Shown here piece by piece: positions 317 to 52,066 of a DNA stretch of 52,066 nt (positions are counted from its first letter, which is position 1; the number at the start of each line of letters is the position of its first letter). The notes beneath the pieces are model-generated. The model was not told where the DNA came from and searched no databases. It saw only the letters and a program-made list of their open reading frames with translations. Origin of the DNA: Bacteroidales bacterium (GTDB lineage Bacteria; Bacteroidota; Bacteroidia; Bacteroidales; UBA3824); the NCBI GenBank assembly GCA_017651345.1, contig JAGCDD010000460.1:1-52066 (forward strand). Direction: 5' to 3'. A program made the position numbers and the translations under genes.

Positions 317-347
317 CAAAGATAGAACTCATTTTCGTATCTACAAA
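317..347 (-). promoter_or_regulatory. Promoter of the tRNA cluster
   Basis: On the minus strand TTTG (347-344) is followed after 19 bases by TATCTTTG (324-317), an excellent match to the Bacteroidota TTTG / TAnnTTTG promoter. Transcription would start near 310, about 30 bases before tRNA-Gly. Confidence 0.75.
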
Positions 348-2090: not shown

Positions 2091-3290
2091 ATGATAAAGA
2101 AATTATTTTTAATAATGCTTTTGGCGGCTTTCGCAGTTACAGGCCGCGCTCAAAGCGACTATTACGAGTACGACGACAACGACGGCTACGAAAACACCGG
2201 CGTTTACGAAATCGAAGACGATGTTTACGACTCGTACGAGGTGAGAATCAAACGTTTCCATCACCCCAAGACCGTTATCCGCAAAACCTACTACGACGGA
2301 TTGTTTACCATCGGTGCCGCCGCCGCCATCATCACCGTGGCAGCCACACCTTATTATTGGCATCCGCTCTACTATTCGTGGTACCGTCCCGTGGTTTATC
2401 ACCGCTATTACACTAACTGCGTAAGACACAGTTACTACCGCTATTCGTATTACCGTCCGGGAGTGGTGGTTTGGCACGATTACGGATACCGTCCAGTGCA
2501 CACAGTTTATCATTACGATTACTACTATCGTCCTGTGTATCATACCACTTACCACTATTATCACTACACCCCGCGCTACTACGACCGCTATGCCTACAAT
2601 CACGCCCGCTGGAACGCCAACCGCTACAACTATTACCACGGCTACAACCGCCATTACAGCCCGTCGTACCAACGCAGCCACTCGTATTCAAACCGCAGCA
2701 ACGACTACAACCGCAGCAACAATGTAAACCGTAGCGACCATTACAACTCGCATTCGGGCACATCAAACCGCAATTCACATTCGGGTTCTACCAATCGTTC
2801 AAACGGTTACAGCAACAGTCATTCGGGAAGCAGCCATTCAGGAAGTGCCAACAGCCACAGCGGATCATCAAACCGCTCAAACGGATACAGCAACGGCAGC
2901 CACTCAGGTAGCAGCCACAGTGGAAGTTCTTCAAGCCATAGCGGAAGTTCATACAACCGTTCAGGCAGTTCTTCAAGCCATAGCGGAAGTTCTTCGAGCC
3001 ACAGTGGAAGTTCATACAGCCGTTCTGGAAGTTCTTCAAGCCATAGCGGAAGTTCTTCGAGCCACAGCGGAAGTAGCACACGCTCAGGCAGTTCTTCTTC
3101 ACACAGCGGAAGCTCGTCAAGCCATAGCGGTAGTTCTTCAAGCCGTAGCGGTAGTTCTTCAAGCCATAGCGGTAGTTCTTCTTCACACAGCGGAAGTTCA
3201 CACAGTGGAAGCTCATCATCTCATAGCGGAAGTTCTCACAGTGGAAGCAGCCATTCAGGAAGTAGTCATTCCGGCAGCAGCCACAGATAA
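2091..3290 (+). CDS. Secreted Tyr-rich protein with long Ser/Gly/His repeat tail
   Basis: Not recognised as a known family. Residues 1-20 form a signal peptide (MIKKLFLIMLLAAFAVTGRAQ). Next come an acidic tyrosine-rich stretch (about 21-50), a conserved-looking segment with one hydrophobic helix (GLFTIGAAAAIITVAATPYYW, about 70-90), and a Tyr/His/Arg-rich region (90-205). From about residue 220 to the end the protein consists of SHSGSS/SRSGSS repeats, with slightly varied codons (agccatagcggaagttct). A lipid-kinase gene starts 12 bp downstream and may be co-transcribed. The composition suggests an extended surface or matrix polymer, possibly metal-binding through histidine; this is inference. 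The long open frames on the other strands here are by-products of the repeat. Confidence 0.8.
   Translation: MIKKLFLIMLLAAFAVTGRAQSDYYEYDDNDGYENTGVYEIEDDVYDSYEVRIKRFHHPKTVIRKTYYDGLFTIGAAAAIITVAATPYYWHPLYYSWYRPVVYHRYYTNCVRHSYYRYSYYRPGVVVWHDYGYRPVHTVYHYDYYYRPVYHTTYHYYHYTPRYYDRYAYNHARWNANRYNYYHGYNRHYSPSYQRSHSYSNRSNDYNRSNNVNRSDHYNSHSGTSNRNSHSGSTNRSNGYSNSHSGSSHSGSANSHSGSSNRSNGYSNGSHSGSSHSGSSSSHSGSSYNRSGSSSSHSGSSSSHSGSSYSRSGSSSSHSGSSSSHSGSSTRSGSSSSHSGSSSSHSGSSSSRSGSSSSHSGSSSSHSGSSHSGSSSSHSGSSHSGSSHSGSSHSGSSHR
2740..3287 (+). repeat. In-frame degenerate repeat encoding SHSGSS units
   Basis: About 30 short units coding Ser-(His/Arg)-Ser-Gly-Ser-Ser, for example AGCCATAGCGGAAGT, dominate this interval. 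Higher-order repeats (SSSHSGSSSSHSGSSYSRSG) are seen at 2930-3080. Such tracts are prone to copy-number change by slippage. Confidence 0.85.
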
Positions 3291-4175: not shown

Positions 4176-4180
4176 AATTT

Positions 4181-4266
4181 TACAGATAGAAATGTATTTA
4201 TGGATAAAATTATTACATTTTGAAATGTAAAAATAGCCAGAAATTTGCATTTGGGAATGTAAAAAA
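4181..4266 (+). repeat. Three 32-bp tandem repeats, each with a dyad (locus B)
   Basis: Units start at 4181, 4213 and 4245. The central one is a perfect inverted repeat TTACATTT-TG-AAATGTAA (4213-4230); the flanking ones are diverged (TTACAGATAGAAATGTAT; TTGCATTTGGGAATGTAA). They directly precede the ATPase C-terminal remnant at 4266. The arrangement parallels the repeats before the intact ATPase gene (38686-38773). Confidence 0.7.
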
Positions 4267-4391
4267 TGCTCAATATGGGCAACTCTTTTGACCAAATCAA
4301 AGATATAGAAGATAGTTACCTTGCCGTTGACGACACCGAGATAGGATACGGAAATAGGATTCCGCTGTGGATGTGTGGGTTGGTGTATTAA
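4266..4391 (+). pseudogene. C-terminal remnant of a DUF4143-type AAA ATPase
   Basis: A 41-codon frame (ATG 4266, TAA 4389-4391) encodes ...DSYLAVDDTEIGYGNRIPLW... and ends MCGLVY. The last 24 residues differ from the C-terminus of the intact ATPase at 37434-38639 (DSYLAVDDMEVGFGNRIPLW, then MFGFLY) at only six positions. Everything upstream that should encode the Walker motifs is missing; only the three 32-bp repeats remain in front of it. This looks like a deletion scar of a paralogous ATPase gene. Expression as a peptide is possible but not supported. Confidence 0.8.
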
Positions 4392-4502: not shown

Positions 4503-4542
4503 TATCAACTAAAAAAACATTAATATTTGGTGTTTAAAATTG

Positions 4543-7344
4543 ATGAAGCAACTCACTGTTATTATTATACTTATGTTAATACCTTTGGTGTCGATGCCGC
4601 AGAGCAAACAATCGGAACAAAGGTTTCAGCAGGGTATAGAACTTTTCAACTCACAAAAATACGAAGAGGCTTTGTTGTGTTTCAAAAAATGCGATGCTCT
4701 CGATAAGAAAAAACTCAAATCAAATGATTACAACTATTTTCGCGCAGAATTAAAAATGGCCGACTGTTACAACGGTTTGGCAGATAATTGTTACGAACGT
4801 CTCAACTACGACGATGCTATCAGGCTTGAAAACTTAACGATTGAGATAAGAAAGAAAATTTTGGGTGAAAACCATCACGACTATGCCGCTGCCTTAATAA
4901 TTCTTGGCAGATTTTATCACAAAAAAGGTAACGATACCGAGGCTATAAGGCTTGTAACCAATGCGATGAATATTTTAAAGAGGATTGGCAACGACGATGC
5001 CGAATATGCCGAATCGCTCAACGACTTGGCTTTATACAACGATTACAACGGCGATACTCCCGAAGCTATCAGGCTTGGCACTGCGGCTATTGAGGTGTGG
5101 AACAAGTGTTTAGGTAACGCACATCGCAACTATGCCATCGCCGTAAGCAATATTGCAAGATATTATTTCAACCTTGGCAACGTTGACGAGGCGATTAGCA
5201 AAGAGACCGCCGCATTAGAGATTTTCAAAAAATCTGTCGGTGAAAATCATTTCGACTATGCCACTTCGCTCAACAATCTTGCGTGGTACAACAACTACAA
5301 AGGCAACCATAAAGAGGCCATTAGGCTTGGTACTTTGGCAGTAGAAACATACAAAAAAGTATTAGGAAACCGACACTCTTATTATGCCATCGGGCTCAAC
5401 AATCTTGCCGGATATTACAGTGAAACAGACAATTACAATGAGGCTAAAAATTTTTTATCCGAATCGATACAAATAAAAAAAGATATTTTGGGTAATCAAC
5501 ATCCTTCGTACGCTTTGTCGCTCAACAATCTTGCTGAATTATATTGCAATTTGGGTAATTACAACGAGGCTATCAGAGTGGGCACAAATGCATTGTCTAT
5601 CCGCAAAAAAGTTTTGGGAGCAGGACATTTCCGCATTGCCGAATCGCTAAAACAACTTGCCGACATTTACCTTATTGTGGGCAAATACGACAGCGCAGCT
5701 AATTATTATTTAGAATGTTACAAAAGCATCACCTCGTTTATATTAAAAAATTTTTCGTCGATGACAAACAAAGAACGTGCTGACTTTTGGAACAAAAACT
5801 CTCAATTTTTCAACAAAAACTTGCCTTACGCAGCTTACGTTCATCCCGATTCTGCGTTATGTTCGCTCGCATACGACAGTCAGATTTTTGCCAAAGGTCT
5901 GCTGCTCAACACCGAACTCGAAATTCAAAAACTCATAGAACAGAGCGGCGACTCCACATTCTCAAATCGATACTACAAAATAAAGCAAGACCGCGCGAGG
6001 CTCGACAATCTTTACCAAAAAGCGGTGGAAAATAGAAAGATAAACACAGATTCGCTTCAAATAATAATCGACAACGAAGAACGCTTGCTTGTGGCATCGT
6101 CGAAGGCTCTTGGTGATTATACAAAAAACCTCTCCATTAGTTGGAAAGATATACAGAAGAATCTAAAAAACAACGATTTAGCAATAGAATTTACTATTGT
6201 AAAAGACTCCGTCAACAAACAGATTTTTTATGTAGCCCTTGTGCTCAACAACCAAATGCAACATCCTAAACTCGTAAAACTGTTTTCTACCGACGACTTT
6301 TGGTGTATCCGAACCAAAGATTATTACACCTCCCCCCTACTCTACAACCTTGTTTGGCAACCGTTGGAGCCGTATCTCAAAAATGTTAAAACAGTGTATT
6401 TTTCGCCCGCAGGACATTTTCACAAAATAGGCATCGAGTATCTTCCCGACGACAAAGGCAACATTTTTGCCGAACAATTTGATACTTATCGTCTGTCGTC
6501 AACTCGCGAACTTACTTTAACTCACCCAGTAAACCCAGAGAGAAAAGCAACCACCTACGGCGGCATTCAATACGACTTTTCGGAAGAAGAATGGCAAAAC
6601 CTTAAAAACGAAAATGATTCTATCCGCCGTCAATTTCGCGACATTCCGCAGATAAACAACGATTTTAGAGGCAACGACTTTGGCTACCTCGCCGGCACTA
6701 AAATAGAATCAGTGTCTATTGCAAAACTCTTATTTGCAGCGCATTACGATATTGACGCACTTACCGACGCCGATGCTACCGAAGAATCTTTTAAACGGCT
6801 TTCGGGCTCTAACATAAAAATACTGCACATTGGCACTCACGGTTTTTATCAAACTGAAAACGATTTGATTAGCTCAGGTTATAGTTTTTTTAAAGAGACA
6901 CAAAACGACGAAGACCGTTCGCTCAGTTGCAGCGGATTGCTATTTGCAGGGGCAAATTCAGCGTTAGACCCGCTTCGCCACATCGAAATTCCCGATGGCA
7001 CCGAAGACGGAATTCTAACTGCCAAAGAAATATCGCGACTCGATTTTAGCGGATTAGATTTGGTGGTGCTGTCGGCGTGCCAAACAGGATTGGGAAAGAT
7101 AACAAGCGAAGGAGTTTTCGGATTGCAGCGAGGTTTTAAAAAAGCAGGAGCCCAGACCATTGTTATGAGTCTTTGGGAGGTGAGCGACGAAGCAACACAA
7201 CTACTTATGATAGAGTTTTTTAAAAACCTTACAGGAGGTCAATCAAAACGTGCCGCCTTTCTCAACGCACAAAAAATAGTGCGCCAAAAATATCCCAATC
7301 CGCTGTATTGGGCTGCATTTATAATGGTGGACGGAATGGAATAA
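4543..7344 (+). CDS. Secreted TPR-CHAT domain protein
   Basis: A 933-aa protein with a hydrophobic signal peptide (residues 1-20, MKQLTVIIILMLIPLVSMPQ). Tandem TPRs of the 42-residue kinesin-light-chain type (repeated GN..EAIRLGT.A...KK.LG, about 25-400), a helical linker (about 400-560) and a C-terminal CHAT domain follow. CHAT is a caspase/separase-like cysteine peptidase fold. The expected His (LHIGTHGF, residue about 766) and Cys (VLSACQTGLG, about 846) are both present, followed by GLQRGFKKAGAQTIVMSLW. An active protease is therefore plausible; the substrate is unknown. An alternative TTG lies one codon upstream (4540), but ATG 4543 is preferred. The gene converges on the CPBP protease gene with 5 bp between stop codons. 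Confidence 0.9.
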   Translation: MKQLTVIIILMLIPLVSMPQSKQSEQRFQQGIELFNSQKYEEALLCFKKCDALDKKKLKSNDYNYFRAELKMADCYNGLADNCYERLNYDDAIRLENLTIEIRKKILGENHHDYAAALIILGRFYHKKGNDTEAIRLVTNAMNILKRIGNDDAEYAESLNDLALYNDYNGDTPEAIRLGTAAIEVWNKCLGNAHRNYAIAVSNIARYYFNLGNVDEAISKETAALEIFKKSVGENHFDYATSLNNLAWYNNYKGNHKEAIRLGTLAVETYKKVLGNRHSYYAIGLNNLAGYYSETDNYNEAKNFLSESIQIKKDILGNQHPSYALSLNNLAELYCNLGNYNEAIRVGTNALSIRKKVLGAGHFRIAESLKQLADIYLIVGKYDSAANYYLECYKSITSFILKNFSSMTNKERADFWNKNSQFFNKNLPYAAYVHPDSALCSLAYDSQIFAKGLLLNTELEIQKLIEQSGDSTFSNRYYKIKQDRARLDNLYQKAVENRKINTDSLQIIIDNEERLLVASSKALGDYTKNLSISWKDIQKNLKNNDLAIEFTIVKDSVNKQIFYVALVLNNQMQHPKLVKLFSTDDFWCIRTKDYYTSPLLYNLVWQPLEPYLKNVKTVYFSPAGHFHKIGIEYLPDDKGNIFAEQFDTYRLSSTRELTLTHPVNPERKATTYGGIQYDFSEEEWQNLKNENDSIRRQFRDIPQINNDFRGNDFGYLAGTKIESVSIAKLLFAAHYDIDALTDADATEESFKRLSGSNIKILHIGTHGFYQTENDLISSGYSFFKETQNDEDRSLSCSGLLFAGANSALDPLRHIEIPDGTEDGILTAKEISRLDFSGLDLVVLSACQTGLGKITSEGVFGLQRGFKKAGAQTIVMSLWEVSDEATQLLMIEFFKNLTGGQSKRAAFLNAQKIVRQKYPNPLYWAAFIMVDGME

Positions 7345-37433: not shown

Positions 37434-38639
37434 TTAATATAAAAAACCGAACATCCACAGTGGAATACGGTTCCCAAAACCAACTTCCATATCATCAACA
37501 GCCAAATAACTATCAGGCATATCGGCTATCTGTCGATAACTTTTTTTGTTTCCTCCTACCTCAAATGTGTATCTGCCATCTACAACAAAATCTCCTGCCA
37601 CAGGTATTTCGATAGTATGAAGAGTTCGTGTTTGATTGGCAAAAAAAGTCTCCCTAACTGTACCCTGAGTAATATTCTGTGTTAATGCGTACATTAGATT
37701 GGTGTTTTCGGTATAAACCTTTTGCGGACTTGCAAGATGCTTGTAACTATTAGCGGGCGAATTTACACATAGAACAAGACCTGCAGAATGAAGTATGTTC
37801 AGCATTTTTAGTGCGTGCTCTCGCGACACCTGTAGTTGCTCAGCAAGTTTAGAAATGTTTGGCACAAACGGCAGGCTACCCGAAATCACCATCAAAAGCC
37901 TCTTAAGTTTCTCCAAGGTAATATATGCGACATCCTCCACTGCTGGTATATCTATGTCAATGATCGTTTTGGCTACATCAGCAAGACGCATATAATAGGA
38001 ATTGACAGTTTCTTTGTAAAATGGATAGTACCCTCGGAGCAAATAATCGTTGAAACATTTTAGCACCTTGATATTCTCGGTAATTCTCAACGCCATGTTT
38101 TTGTGATTATCAAGCAATTCACTCAAACTCAACGGATTATATTTCAGTTGGAACTCAAATTCCAAATACTCTCTAAACGATAATCCACTCAAACTATATA
38201 GAGATTGACGGCGCGACAAATCAGCTTTTGAATGGTCAATCGCTAACATTGCAGAGCCTGTGTAAACGATTTTCAGTTTTGGATAATTGTCGTAACAATG
38301 TTTGAGATATTGCTGCCAATTTGTTAGTTTATGCACTTCATCCAGAAAAATTGTCTCCACTCCTTGTTGATACAAATACTCCACCAGGTCTGCAAGATCG
38401 TACTTGTTGAACCAAAGATTGTCGAGCGAAACATACAATGCCTTGTCGTAATTGTTGTAATTTTCTTTGATGTATTGCAGCATAAGTGTGGTTTTGCCCA
38501 CTCCGCGAGCACCTTTGATGCCAATAAGACGGTCTGTCCAATCTATCTGCGAATACAAATAGCGTTTAAACTGGCAATCTGTGTCTCTTAATAGTTGGTT
38601 ATAATTGTTAATCAATGGTTTAATATCTGAGTATTCCAT
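37434..38639 (-). CDS. AAA family ATPase with DUF4143-type C-terminus
   Basis: A 401-aa protein from ATG 38639; the frame continues 20 codons into the repeat region, which is unlikely to be coding. Walker A GARGVGKTT (43-51), Walker B TIFLDEVHK (about 93-101) and a sensor-like YTGSAMLAI follow. A winged-helix-like part (KLAEQLQVSREHALKMLNILHSAGLV) precedes a nuclease-like C-terminal region (FVVDGRYTFEVGGNKKSYRQI) ending IPLWMFGFLY. This AAA_14/DUF4143 class is abundant in Bacteroidota with no settled function. Its promoter overlaps three 33-bp dyad repeats, suggesting autoregulation. A C-terminal remnant of a paralogue lies at 4266-4391. Confidence 0.85.
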   Translation of the reverse strand: MEYSDIKPLINNYNQLLRDTDCQFKRYLYSQIDWTDRLIGIKGARGVGKTTLMLQYIKENYNNYDKALYVSLDNLWFNKYDLADLVEYLYQQGVETIFLDEVHKLTNWQQYLKHCYDNYPKLKIVYTGSAMLAIDHSKADLSRRQSLYSLSGLSFREYLEFEFQLKYNPLSLSELLDNHKNMALRITENIKVLKCFNDYLLRGYYPFYKETVNSYYMRLADVAKTIIDIDIPAVEDVAYITLEKLKRLLMVISGSLPFVPNISKLAEQLQVSREHALKMLNILHSAGLVLCVNSPANSYKHLASPQKVYTENTNLMYALTQNITQGTVRETFFANQTRTLHTIEIPVAGDFVVDGRYTFEVGGNKKSYRQIADMPDSYLAVDDMEVGFGNRIPLWMFGFLY

Positions 38640-38671
38640 AACATGTAATGTTTTTACGAGGTATAACGCTG

Positions 38672-38679
38672 CAAATATA
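38672..38679 (-). promoter_or_regulatory. -7 element of the ATPase gene, adjacent to the 33-bp repeats
   Basis: TATATTTG (38679-38672) on the minus strand fits TAnnTTTG. The expected -33 position falls inside the first repeat (TTGG at 38699-38696, 16 bases away). A protein binding the repeat would therefore contact or occlude the promoter. Confidence 0.55.
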
Positions 38680-38685
38680 CTAAAA

Positions 38686-38784
38686 ATTGCAATCTCCAAC
38701 TTGCAATTTTACCCAAAAATTGCAATCTCCAACTTGCAATTTTACCTAAATATTGCAATCTCCAACTTACAATTTGTATTTAAA
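38686..38784 (-). repeat. Three 33-bp tandem dyad repeats upstream of the ATPase gene (locus A)
   Basis: Units begin at 38686, 38719 and 38752, spacing exactly 33. Each contains a 22-bp dyad ATTGCAA-N8-TTGCAAT (third copy has one changed base, TTACAAT) followed by a T/A-rich linker. Read toward the ATPase gene the core is GTTGGAGATTGCAATTTTT. Confidence 0.88.
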
Positions 38785-45606: not shown

Positions 45607-45706
45607 ACTTTTTTAACCTACTACACAAACGGAGCAAAGTATACTGGAAGGCAGGTGGTTTCGCCTAAATACCATAATAACCGTAATTAACTGATTTAAG
45701 ACACAT

Positions 45707-45787
45707 TTGCACGTTCCGCAAAATTTATTTTGGTAAAAATTGCACTTTCCGCAATATTTTTTTAGGCAAAATCTGCACTTTCCGCAA
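45707..45787 (-). repeat. Three 33-bp tandem repeats (locus C)
   Basis: Conserved 15-mers at 45707-45721, 45740-45754 and 45773-45787, spacing exactly 33. The plus-strand middle copy is TTGCACTTTCCGCAA. Outer bases form a short dyad (TTGC-N7-GCAA) and an A/T-rich linker separates units. Read on the minus strand the core is GCGGAAAGTGCAATTTTT, like the core of the ATPase-associated repeats at 38686. They lie in a 253-bp gap between maf and the 45802 lipoprotein gene. Confidence 0.8.
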
Positions 45788-45801
45788 AATGTTAGCGGTT
45801 G

Positions 45802-46428: not shown

Positions 46429-47994
46429 TTATCGATTACCTTCAATCACCTCCATCTCCACCTCGTGTTTGGATGTGGATTTATTGTAGTTGATGCCGCA
46501 GAGGATGATGCGTTTGGAGAAGCCTTTGAGCGAAGCGGGGTATTCTTTGCGGTGGATTTGGTCGATGGCAGAGTCGGCTGATTTGTCGTATTTGAGTTCT
46601 ACAACGATGGCAGGATGTGATGAATTATGCAAAGGTATGAACACCATATCGGCAAAGCCTTTACCCGTAGGTAGTTCGTGGAATATCTTATAAAAAGGTT
46701 TGGCAGCGTAATATGCCAATACGATGGCGCAGCGCATTGAATTTTCGTCGTTAAACTCCAAAAGGGATGATGCCTCAAAATGGTAGGAGTCGAATGCACG
46801 GGCGATTTTATCTTTGCGCAAGTTGAGAGTGTCGTCCAAAAGGTTGAGCGACGAGTTCACCGCCTTAGATAGTTCGCCCCAACCTGCCACACTGACAGCG
46901 TTTTCAAACTCTTCGGAAACCTCTGTGTTAGGAATTGTTACGCTGCGGGTCTCAGGATTGTACGAAAGGTATCCGAGGTGAACGAGAAGGGTTAGCACGT
47001 CGTCGCAATTGTCGATATTCTTCATATCGTTGCGGAAACTCGACACTCTCACTGTGGCACTCTCTCCGTTCATCATACCTATAATCTTTGACCTTACATT
47101 GTCTGCGTCGGTGTGAAGGTAGGTTTCGATAGCCATAAAGGATGCCGTCTTCGACCAATAACTGTTGTAGTTGCGAAACAGAATCGACTGCATTACCGAA
47201 AACGGATTGAACATAGATTTTTCGCGACCTATAATATAGCCATCGTAGGCGTGTTTCATAAGTTCAAAGTCCATATCGTTCTCCGCACAGAGTATTTTTA
47301 CCTCGTCTTCGGTAAAACCATAATATTTGTCGGTTATGCCCGGATTTACGATGCTGTATTCCACAAAATTGTTCAACGCCGACTGAGTCCTTATCTTGAT
47401 AATGGGCAGTATACCAGTCATATACACCAAGAGGAAAATCTTTTTAGCATTGTTCGATTTGAACATAGCACGCAGAAAGTTAACATACTCGTCTTGAATA
47501 TCTTGATCTACATCTCTCACGAGCATATCCCACTCGTCGATTATGAGGATAAAGCGGTCGCCAGTTTTGTCGTTGATTTCTGCAAGTGCTTTGGCAAAAG
47601 ATTCTTGTTCTTGCAAAAAAGGATATGATTTTTTTAGGTCGGCAACAAAGCATTTCTGAGCCTCTTTCAATATCTCGTTTTTGGGAATGTCGGCAAACCT
47701 ATTCCAATCAATGTAGATTGTGGGATATTTGTTGAGGTGGGTCTTGAAGTCGGGATTCTTTGTGATTTCCAAGCCCTCGAACAGTTCTTTCGACTTTGAC
47801 GAACGGTCGTAGTAAGCATACGCCATCTGAGCCGCCACCGACTTGCCGAAACGGCGGGGACGGGAAATGCAGATAAACTTGTTCTCTGTATCGAGATTAT
47901 TGTTTAAAAAGGTCAATAATCCTGACTTGTCAACAAAATTGCTGTTGATAACGCTCCTAAAATCGCTATTGCCGTAATCAATGAAATCGCTCAT
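46429..47994 (-). CDS. AAA-ATPase-like / PD-(D/E)XK nuclease-like protein (DUF1703 type)
   Basis: A 521-aa protein. The N-terminus DYGNSDFRSVINSNFVDKSGLLTFL and Walker A ISRPRRFGKSVAAQ (about 43-56) are typical of the AAA-ATPase_like family, with Walker B-like FILIIDEWDML (about 149-159). The C-terminal PDDEXK_9 part has GKGFADMVFIPL and AIVVELKYDKSADSAIDQI (D...ExK core, about 455-490). The family is expanded in Bacteroidota and gut anaerobes and is of unknown role; mobile-element or defence links have been suggested. It has its own consensus promoter. Confidence 0.87.
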   Translation of the reverse strand: MSDFIDYGNSDFRSVINSNFVDKSGLLTFLNNNLDTENKFICISRPRRFGKSVAAQMAYAYYDRSSKSKELFEGLEITKNPDFKTHLNKYPTIYIDWNRFADIPKNEILKEAQKCFVADLKKSYPFLQEQESFAKALAEINDKTGDRFILIIDEWDMLVRDVDQDIQDEYVNFLRAMFKSNNAKKIFLLVYMTGILPIIKIRTQSALNNFVEYSIVNPGITDKYYGFTEDEVKILCAENDMDFELMKHAYDGYIIGREKSMFNPFSVMQSILFRNYNSYWSKTASFMAIETYLHTDADNVRSKIIGMMNGESATVRVSSFRNDMKNIDNCDDVLTLLVHLGYLSYNPETRSVTIPNTEVSEEFENAVSVAGWGELSKAVNSSLNLLDDTLNLRKDKIARAFDSYHFEASSLLEFNDENSMRCAIVLAYYAAKPFYKIFHELPTGKGFADMVFIPLHNSSHPAIVVELKYDKSADSAIDQIHRKEYPASLKGFSKRIILCGINYNKSTSKHEVEMEVIEGNR

Positions 47995-51830: not shown

Positions 51831-52066
51831 AAAAGGAGCAAGTAACCATTAATGAGGGATTAAATAAAAATGAGCCTGTAAATGATGGAGAAAACAAGAA
51901 GGAGCAAGTAAATGATGGAGAAAATGATGGAGAAAACAAAAAGGAGCAAGTAAATGATGGAGAAAAAAAAGGTACAAGTAACCAAATATGAGGGATTAAA
52001 TGAGGGATTAAATAAAAATGAGCCTGTAAATGAGCCTGTAAATGATGGAGAAAACAAAAAGGAGCA
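51831..52066 (+). repeat. Modular tandem repeat array, running off the window
   Basis: The last 236 bases are built from a few modules in varying order: ATGATGGAGAAAA, CAAAAAGGAGCAAGTAA, ATGAGGGATTAA(ATAAA) and ATGAGCCTGTAA. In one frame they encode NDGE, NKKEQV, NEGL, NK and NEPV peptides. A larger duplication is visible (51834-51893 versus 51959-52050). An A7 run in the first copy is A8 in the second, which breaks the peptide frame. No start or promoter for such a peptide is visible after the amt terminator, so I do not call a gene. Confidence 0.8.

Follow-up and report, generated by a model that had tools for sequence, protein, structure and literature searches.

Tandem repeat arrays as candidate private operators of AAA_14/DUF4143-type ATPase genes in a Bacteroidales bacterium

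The window analysed here is a stretch of 52,066 nucleotides from a Bacteroidales bacterium, one contig of a draft genome of 4.64 Mb in 483 contigs. It contains an array of three 33-bp repeats (array A) next to the promoter of an ATPase gene (locus A), and this array is interpreted, with a probability of roughly two in three, as the private operator of the neighbouring ATPase, whose protein would bind the array and control its own promoter. The ATPase belongs to a very common family which is suspected of phage defence and whose genes usually carry a nearly unique array next to the promoter. Self-recognition and autoregulation are supported by the enrichment of arrays before these genes, together with the covariation between the repeated unit and a winged-helix segment in the largest protein class.

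Array A (38682-38780) consists of three abutting units of 33 nt, located at 38682-38714, 38715-38747 and 38748-38780 with a spacing of 33 and 33; units 2 and 3 are 97% and 79% identical to unit 1. Its self-match score at lag 33 is 53.5, compared with a maximum of 14.5 among 1000 shuffles that preserve the dinucleotides of this 360-bp region. The original prediction had placed three repeats at 38686, 38719 and 38752, exactly 33 bp apart, and the motif ATTGCAA-N8-TTGCAAT starts at these three positions; however, the dyad claimed for every repeat is imperfect in the third one, where the right arm reads TTACAAT. The octamer TATATTTG (minus strand, 38672-38679), which we take to be the Bacteroidota-type -7 box of the ATPase gene, lies 6 bp from the nearest dyad of the array, the distance that had been foreseen. 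The gene, recognised by Pfam, PADLOC and class alignment, likely starts at the ATG at 38639 and thus spans 37434-38639 of the minus strand, coding for 401 aa; position 38699 is part of the mechanical TTG-to-stop frame of the same gene. An orthologue that is 98% identical is found in genome G002, where the unit is kept in four copies instead of the three of the window.

In Pfam comparisons the locus A protein matches AAA_14 with 103.9 bits (cut-off 27) and DUF4143 with 25.1 bits, just under the cut-off of 28.1. The protein L014, a representative of the main class, is over the cut-off for both (88.2 and 98.9 bits, respectively). The locus A protein is composed of an AAA_14 domain, a segment that appears winged-helix-like from its sequence, and a C-terminal DUF4143/PD-(D/E)XK-like domain. 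The core Walker residues and the PD-(D/E)XK residues D374, E387 and K389 are invariant among 31 aligned sequences of the main class. In the locus-A class (A3 numbering) D350 is invariant and E360 is conserved in at least 90% of the sequences, followed by G362-G363 and by K366, again in at least 90%. Two glycines therefore occupy the place where the K of E-x-K is expected, and a conserved K stands a few residues on (residues ~350-366); the nuclease of this class may, from these residues, be altered or inactive.

L014 matches the PADLOC model PDC-S01 over residues 4-436 of 439 (E 2e-140), and the locus A protein matches it partially (residues 35-323 of 401, E 7e-28). L079, from a class of about 480 aa whose arrays have units of about 53 bp, matches PDC-S27 at near full length (E 1e-202). 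Unlike PDC-S01 and PDC-S27, locus A is devoid of the K of the E-x-K motif. Sequence searches of the PDB yielded P-loop or chance-level matches only, or none. According to the accessible parts of PMC12988326, both PDC-S01 and PDC-S27 are ATPase domains fused to the PD-(D/E)-X-K superfamily and are phage-defence candidates; most PDCs still await validation, and PDC-S01 is the fourth most common defence across prokaryotes. Among the defence systems of the rumen it is also the individual locus met most often, as stated in the accessible parts of PMC13356809. Upstream arrays are unmentioned in the available portion of the account of both systems in PMC12988326. The available text of the literature searched, which comprised few subscription journals and no bioRxiv preprints, includes no description of such arrays, and DUF4143 appears there as a mere domain label.

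The frequency of arrays before these ATPases was determined in the own genome of the window and in its genus. In the own genome, 109 open frames with AAA_14, DUF4143 or PF09820 matches were listed by merging the profile matches (two AAA_14 matches were without placement), and the 99 with at least 100 bp upstream were scanned. A self-match score of at least 18 around the frame start was reached by 38 of the 99 ATPase frames and by 5 of 135 control genes; at lag 31-34 the figures were 30 of 99 and 2 of 135. When the threshold was set at 13, arrays were found in 33 of the 35 frames with both AAA_14 and DUF4143 (28 of them at lag 32-33), in 16 of 30 with AAA_14 only, in the single one with DUF4143 only, in 2 of 31 with PF09820 only (one at lag 33, one at lag 23) and in none of the two with AAA_14 and PF09820. 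The window itself contains a negative control, a PF09820 ATPase (AAA-ATPase_like + PDDEXK_9; 46429-47994, minus strand) without an array (score 8), to whose protein the PADLOC models gave no match. PF09820 genes, this one and 36 other matches of the own genome, are expanded about as much as the DUF4143 ATPases. The own genome was covered in 536 kb of the 4.64 Mb, a non-random sample made of the surroundings of ATPases and some long stretches, and it holds 64 arrays (score at least 18, lag 18-60), 44 with lag 32-34 and 9 with lag 52-54. An ATPase frame follows 41 of these 64, and solo arrays occur as well. Other lengths are also found: a divergent DUF4143 ATPase (L012; C244, frame start 584) carries about seven units of 23 bp, and at C222:3500 there is an array with lag 22.

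Relatives of the locus A protein (E <= 1e-60) are present in 15 of the 18 genomes of the genus, the own one included, and those of the main class (E <= 1e-40) and of the 480-aa or PDC-S27 class in all 18. For the counts by class, genes were classified by profiles, proteins identical in the first 150 residues were removed and genes with too little upstream DNA were dropped, 277 of 295 being kept. Arrays of lag 32-34 with a score of at least 12 precede 146 of the 198 genes of the main (DUF4143-type) class and 29 of the 30 genes of the locus-A class, against 8 of 407 control genes, a control set that was left uncleaned and in which several of the matches stem from solo arrays or from those of ATPases nearby. 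The remaining 52 of the 198 main-class genes have no lag 32-34 array at this score. In the PDC-S27 class, arrays of lag 51-55 were found in 30 of 49 genes, against 1 of 407 controls, and in 59 of 105 genes of an enlarged set; one locus set of this class includes 29 of 30 loci, L188 being left out. Such a survey had been proposed with the original prediction, and homologous ATPases do carry tandem arrays far more often than controls (175/228 against 8/407).

Outside the genus, 79 of 80 named loci from GTDB genomes were scanned, one being too short. Arrays of lag 32-34 with a score of at least 12 precede 26 of 34 loci of Bacteroidota and 16 of 45 loci of other phyla, the latter including Spirochaetota, Acidobacteriota, a Chlamydiae MAG, Legionellales, Akkermansiaceae and Victivallales. 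In 28 of the 45 non-Bacteroidota loci the best lag is 32-34, which by chance is expected in about 3 of 46, related loci not being independent. A sample of 21 named plasmid and phage records contained six with a score of at least 18 at lag 32 or 33 (Segatella, Criblamydia, Fusobacterium, Collinsella, Acinetobacter and Agathobacter); in the Acinetobacter record, lag 60 outscores lag 32/33. A gene of the 480-aa class from Wolbachia phage WO has a 56-bp array. The array is weak or ambiguous in the records of Glaesserella, Parabacteroides, Desulfosarcina and Vescimonas, and no array was found at the periods tested in those of Vibrio, a gut phage contig, a Bacteroides cellulosilyticus plasmid, Ruminococcus albus, Rhizobium and Emticicia, the last of which has one long palindrome. 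Four haloarchaeal relatives of the PDC-S27 class are without arrays at 32-34 or 51-55 bp. A 15-bp tandem repeat stands before a haloarchaeal relative of this class on a plasmid of Haladaptatus halobius (L479).

The pattern had also been predicted at two further loci of the window. Both arrays exist, but neither precedes an intact ATPase gene. Array B (4180-4265) is made of about three degenerate units of 32-33 bp, TTACATTT..GAAATGTAA. It is weak when taken alone (score 13.5, reached by none of 500 shuffles, the best of which gave 13), and it has a close counterpart in the array of L139, a G004 module whose gene is open. Directly after it, at 4266-4391 of the plus strand, there is a 41-codon C-terminal remnant of an ATPase of the locus-A class, nearly identical to the C-terminus encoded at L139. 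A gene coding for a TPR-CHAT protein (4540-7344) is situated shortly after this relic. Array C (45695-45790) is strong, with three 33-bp units, TTGCACTTTCCGCAA, and a score of 31.5 against 12 for the best of 500 shuffles, and it is solo: the surrounding 3.1 kb gave no ATPase match. In G006 and in G007 its unit stands before DUF4143 ATPase genes (that of G007 is truncated by the contig end), and the orthologous site has one unit with both flanks in G012 and G013. Arrays B and C look like relics rather than partners of their own intact ATPases. The window includes other tandem repeats, of 21/63 bp (2913-3204) and 28-42 bp (51880-51981), which are unrelated to the arrays.

In related genomes, too, arrays are found without their gene. 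At the locus A site, array and gene are present in G000 and G002, and G004 has a three-unit array without the gene; neither of them is found in the sequence read from G012 and G013, and in G011 BLAST matched neither the array nor the gene. At another site a gene of the locus-A class is present in G004, and G000 retains the array without it. In these two cases the promoter and the gene are missing while the array remains; the direction of each gain or loss is one that we infer. Solo 33-bp arrays also lie beside unrelated genes (L110 near C287:6058 and L076 near C306:10889), and that of L110 carries the unit of the ATPase on C365. The comparison of L339 with L332 revealed two different arrays side by side at one site of G002; one of the two is without its gene, and it is present in both genomes.

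Upstream sequence may also recur after the gene. In the PDC-S27 class, it is found again within 300 bp after the stop codon (score at least 20) in 16 of 45 genes in direct and in 10 of 45 in inverted orientation, two counts that may overlap due to the palindromic units; 12 of the best 14 downstream copies start at most 20 bp from the stop codon. The corresponding values are 12/182 direct and 3/182 inverted for the DUF4143 class, not all of them array copies, and 0/29 for the locus-A class. With shuffled pairing, recurrence was observed in 0/40 (PDC-S27), 0/181 (DUF4143) and 1/28 (locus-A class). L079 and L171 (C286) are among the PDC-S27-class genes whose array is repeated soon after the stop codon, and the C286 module with both arrays is missing as a block in G002. 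The pair L128 and L117 shows a clean empty site, with AATTTG at both ends. At C482 a search for joined flanks revealed no empty site: five genomes possess both flanks, at a distance of 1.8-3.4 kb from each other. At L007 (C32) the second copy of the array lies past the ATPase and shortly before the apparent start of the next gene, on which it may also act.

A plain operator explains neither the arrays without an ATPase nor the second copies after the stop codon, and both leave room for the idea of a mobile module. One such idea, which we regard as unlikely, is that the private array serves a selfish module as its operator and its identity tag at once; the ATPase-nuclease encoded by the module would control itself and would move, keep or protect its own gene. 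Were this true, genomes would collect many mutually blind modules with one array each, and solo arrays would be the scars left after gene loss. Quite unlikely is a second form, in which the array is a cis-acting end used by the ATPase-nuclease to move or maintain its gene, the unit of movement extending from the array to the stop codon and sometimes having arrays on both sides. The recurrence after the stop codon in the PDC-S27 class, the absence from G002 of the C286 block with both its arrays and the empty site of L128/L117 speak for it. However, most genes of the DUF4143 class are without a second copy, no target duplication has been established, the borders beyond one AATTTG pair are ambiguous, and in the two cases above only the promoter and the gene are missing. 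Besides, the arrays mostly adjoin the promoter, which would be needless for a transposon end. Tn7, too, has arrays of binding sites at its ends, which enclose genes for an ATPase and for a nuclease of the PD-(D/E)XK type. In the modules described here, however, there is one protein, the arrays are mostly one-sided and transposition is hypothetical.

The sequence of the unit bears on the choice between a private operator and regulation by a shared factor. No further match in the 536 kb of the own genome was found for 27 of 38 units scanned, a count in which the C166 gene, broken by a stop, enters twice. Units of paralogues differ and close orthologues share them: orthologues retain the core of the unit while the linkers vary, as with TTTCTTTNNAAAGAAA, which is found in six loci of the genus. 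The main-class paralogues of C129 and C367, by comparison, are 57% identical as proteins and have different units. In the main class, 138 of 198 genes, those with a lag 32-34 array of score at least 14, were compared in pairs. A unit match of at least 15/18 was observed in about 1% of the pairs below 35% protein identity, 3-4% at 35-50%, 8% at 50-60%, 28% at 60-70%, 85% at 70-80% and 93-94% above. Descent alone could yield some of this co-divergence of unit and protein; the sharp private divergence between paralogues, together with the cores kept among orthologues, suggests a function. A perfect 7+7 inverted repeat is present in 57% of the units of the locus-A class, 68% of those of the 53-bp (PDC-S27) class and 22% of those of the main class, and in 3-7% of shuffled units; dyads of the kind originally predicted are common in the first two classes and are no general rule. 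It could be argued that another protein of the host binds the arrays and regulates all these genes jointly, and some sub-motifs do recur by eye among units, for example AAAAATGT. A single common regulator would, however, keep one site, and the private units, which differ between paralogues and diverge along with each protein, speak against it; we consider this explanation improbable.

The covariation analysis that had been proposed with the original prediction was run to find the segment of the protein whose variation goes with that of the unit. The similarity of 20-residue windows was correlated with that of the units, whole-protein identity being held constant (partial correlation). In the main class, with pairs of 35-72% identity (up to 1991 pairs), the peak is at residues ~236-275 of L014, with r up to 0.225, a segment taken to be the winged helix in view of its sequence and position; a second rise is observed at 290-340 (r up to 0.194). 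The remaining windows are at or below ~0.16 beside the first peak (225-255) and ~0.10 elsewhere, many of them negative. At 40-65% identity the highest value is that of window 321-340, where the nuclease domain starts, with r 0.267 versus 0.255 for the winged helix. After collapse at 80% identity (88 sequences) the winged-helix windows come first in each of the six settings, in one of them jointly with a P-loop window. Their mean in the standard setting (752 pairs) is attained by 2 of 200 permutations, and in 100 bootstraps of the collapsed class the top window falls in the winged helix 47 times, in the second rise 14 times and in other places 39 times.

In the main class the winged helix is, in most settings, the segment that best follows the unit; this is not so in the two smaller classes. 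The profile of the PDC-S27 class is diffuse, without a winged-helix peak and highest at 180-199 (r 0.20), and the 29 genes of the locus-A class give a best window of 91-110 (r 0.24), the winged helix reaching at most 0.17. These absences count against the winged helix as the reader of the array, although they may be due to the narrowness of the identity ranges and the small number of related pairs. The winged helix as the reading part has statistical support in the largest class only, as supporting evidence and not as proof. The proposal that the ATPase or its winged helix binds the array and regulates itself is favoured by the enrichment and by the main class, and not by the profile of the class to which locus A belongs; binding itself is what we infer.

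The position of the promoter bears on a further explanation. TAnnTTTG is the -7 box of Bacteroidota, and among 163 array-bearing genes of the genus of the window, to whose loci all counts of promoters and periods refer, it occurs within 110 nt before the ATG in 154. It lies at or past the array end in 127, and at most 25 bp from this end in 101; it is found only inside or before the array end in 27 and is absent in 9. The median distance from the array end to the nearest TAnnTTTG is 5, 3 and 10 bp in the three classes, with wide spread. In the 110 nt before the array the motif is found in 23 of 163 (14%), compared with 8% in random windows. The period of the array follows the protein class: at a score of at least 12, it is 32 bp in 35 and 7 genes and 33 bp in 72 and 22 genes of the two DUF4143-type classes, respectively, and mostly 52-54 bp in the 480-aa class. 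Periods of 32-34 and 51-55 bp correspond to about three and about five helical turns.

Type III toxin-antitoxin systems have tandem repeats directly before the gene, and it is conceivable, but very improbable, that the arrays are likewise transcribed as an RNA which neutralises the protein. The likeness is an outward one, consisting in system-specific tandem repeats of ~35 nt directly before the gene. In our genes, however, the promoter motif mostly lies past the repeats and the repeats would thus fall outside the gene's own transcript; the motif is near background before the array, the periods are close to three or five helical turns and some copies lie after the gene. As for a neutral minisatellite or a dispersed repeat (MITE-like or BrickBuilt-like) that is near these genes by chance, variable copy numbers (3 in the window and 4 in G002 at locus A; 3 and 1 at locus C) and the solo arrays would fit, but the enrichment over controls, the largely private units, the period set by the protein class and the adjacency to the promoter make it hardly credible, and a neutral minisatellite was rejected on these four grounds.

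Two known kinds of repeats were also considered and rejected. The arrays are not of the CRISPR type; their 32-33-bp units abut in few copies without long unique spacers. A relation to the dispersed repeats of Porphyromonas, suggested at first, is not upheld. The BrickBuilt MITE of Porphyromonas gingivalis is, in the accessible part of PMC4596501, a single dispersed sequence with a 23-nt unit, a leader and a tail, which occurs 19 times in one genome. It resembles the arrays in being a tandem repeat between genes in Bacteroidales, but the unit here is of 33 bp and mostly private, and the word ATPase is absent from the main text of that paper (PMC4596501).

The mechanism proposed for the private operator is the following. 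The protein, with its AAA/STAND-type ATPase, winged helix and PD-(D/E)XK-like domain, would bind the phased repeats through the winged helix. Binding would probably be cooperative, by an oligomer that contacts the DNA once every three helical turns (every five in the PDC-S27 class). The bound protein would cover the -33 region and adjust the activity of its own promoter, repression being the simplest case. It would be released by some signal, possibly infection, and may have an antiviral role. With its own array for each paralogue, dozens of copies per cell would be controlled separately. Autoregulated operons are known from defence and toxin-antitoxin systems, with controller proteins and antitoxin operators, respectively. 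The ATPases are like them in that the protein is thought to bind repeats at its own promoter. They are unlike them in that the ATPase-nuclease itself would be the regulator, and in that the ~2-7 units are phased near three or five turns and are largely private to dozens of paralogues.

A private and predictable DNA target before most copies of the family would serve as a ligand for purification, as the basis of reporters and as a means to discriminate between paralogues, and hundreds of natural pairs of protein and array would allow the specificity code to be deciphered. Solo arrays would mark past gains and losses of these genes. Finally, sites that are private to each paralogue would let dozens of nearly alike regulators work in parallel.
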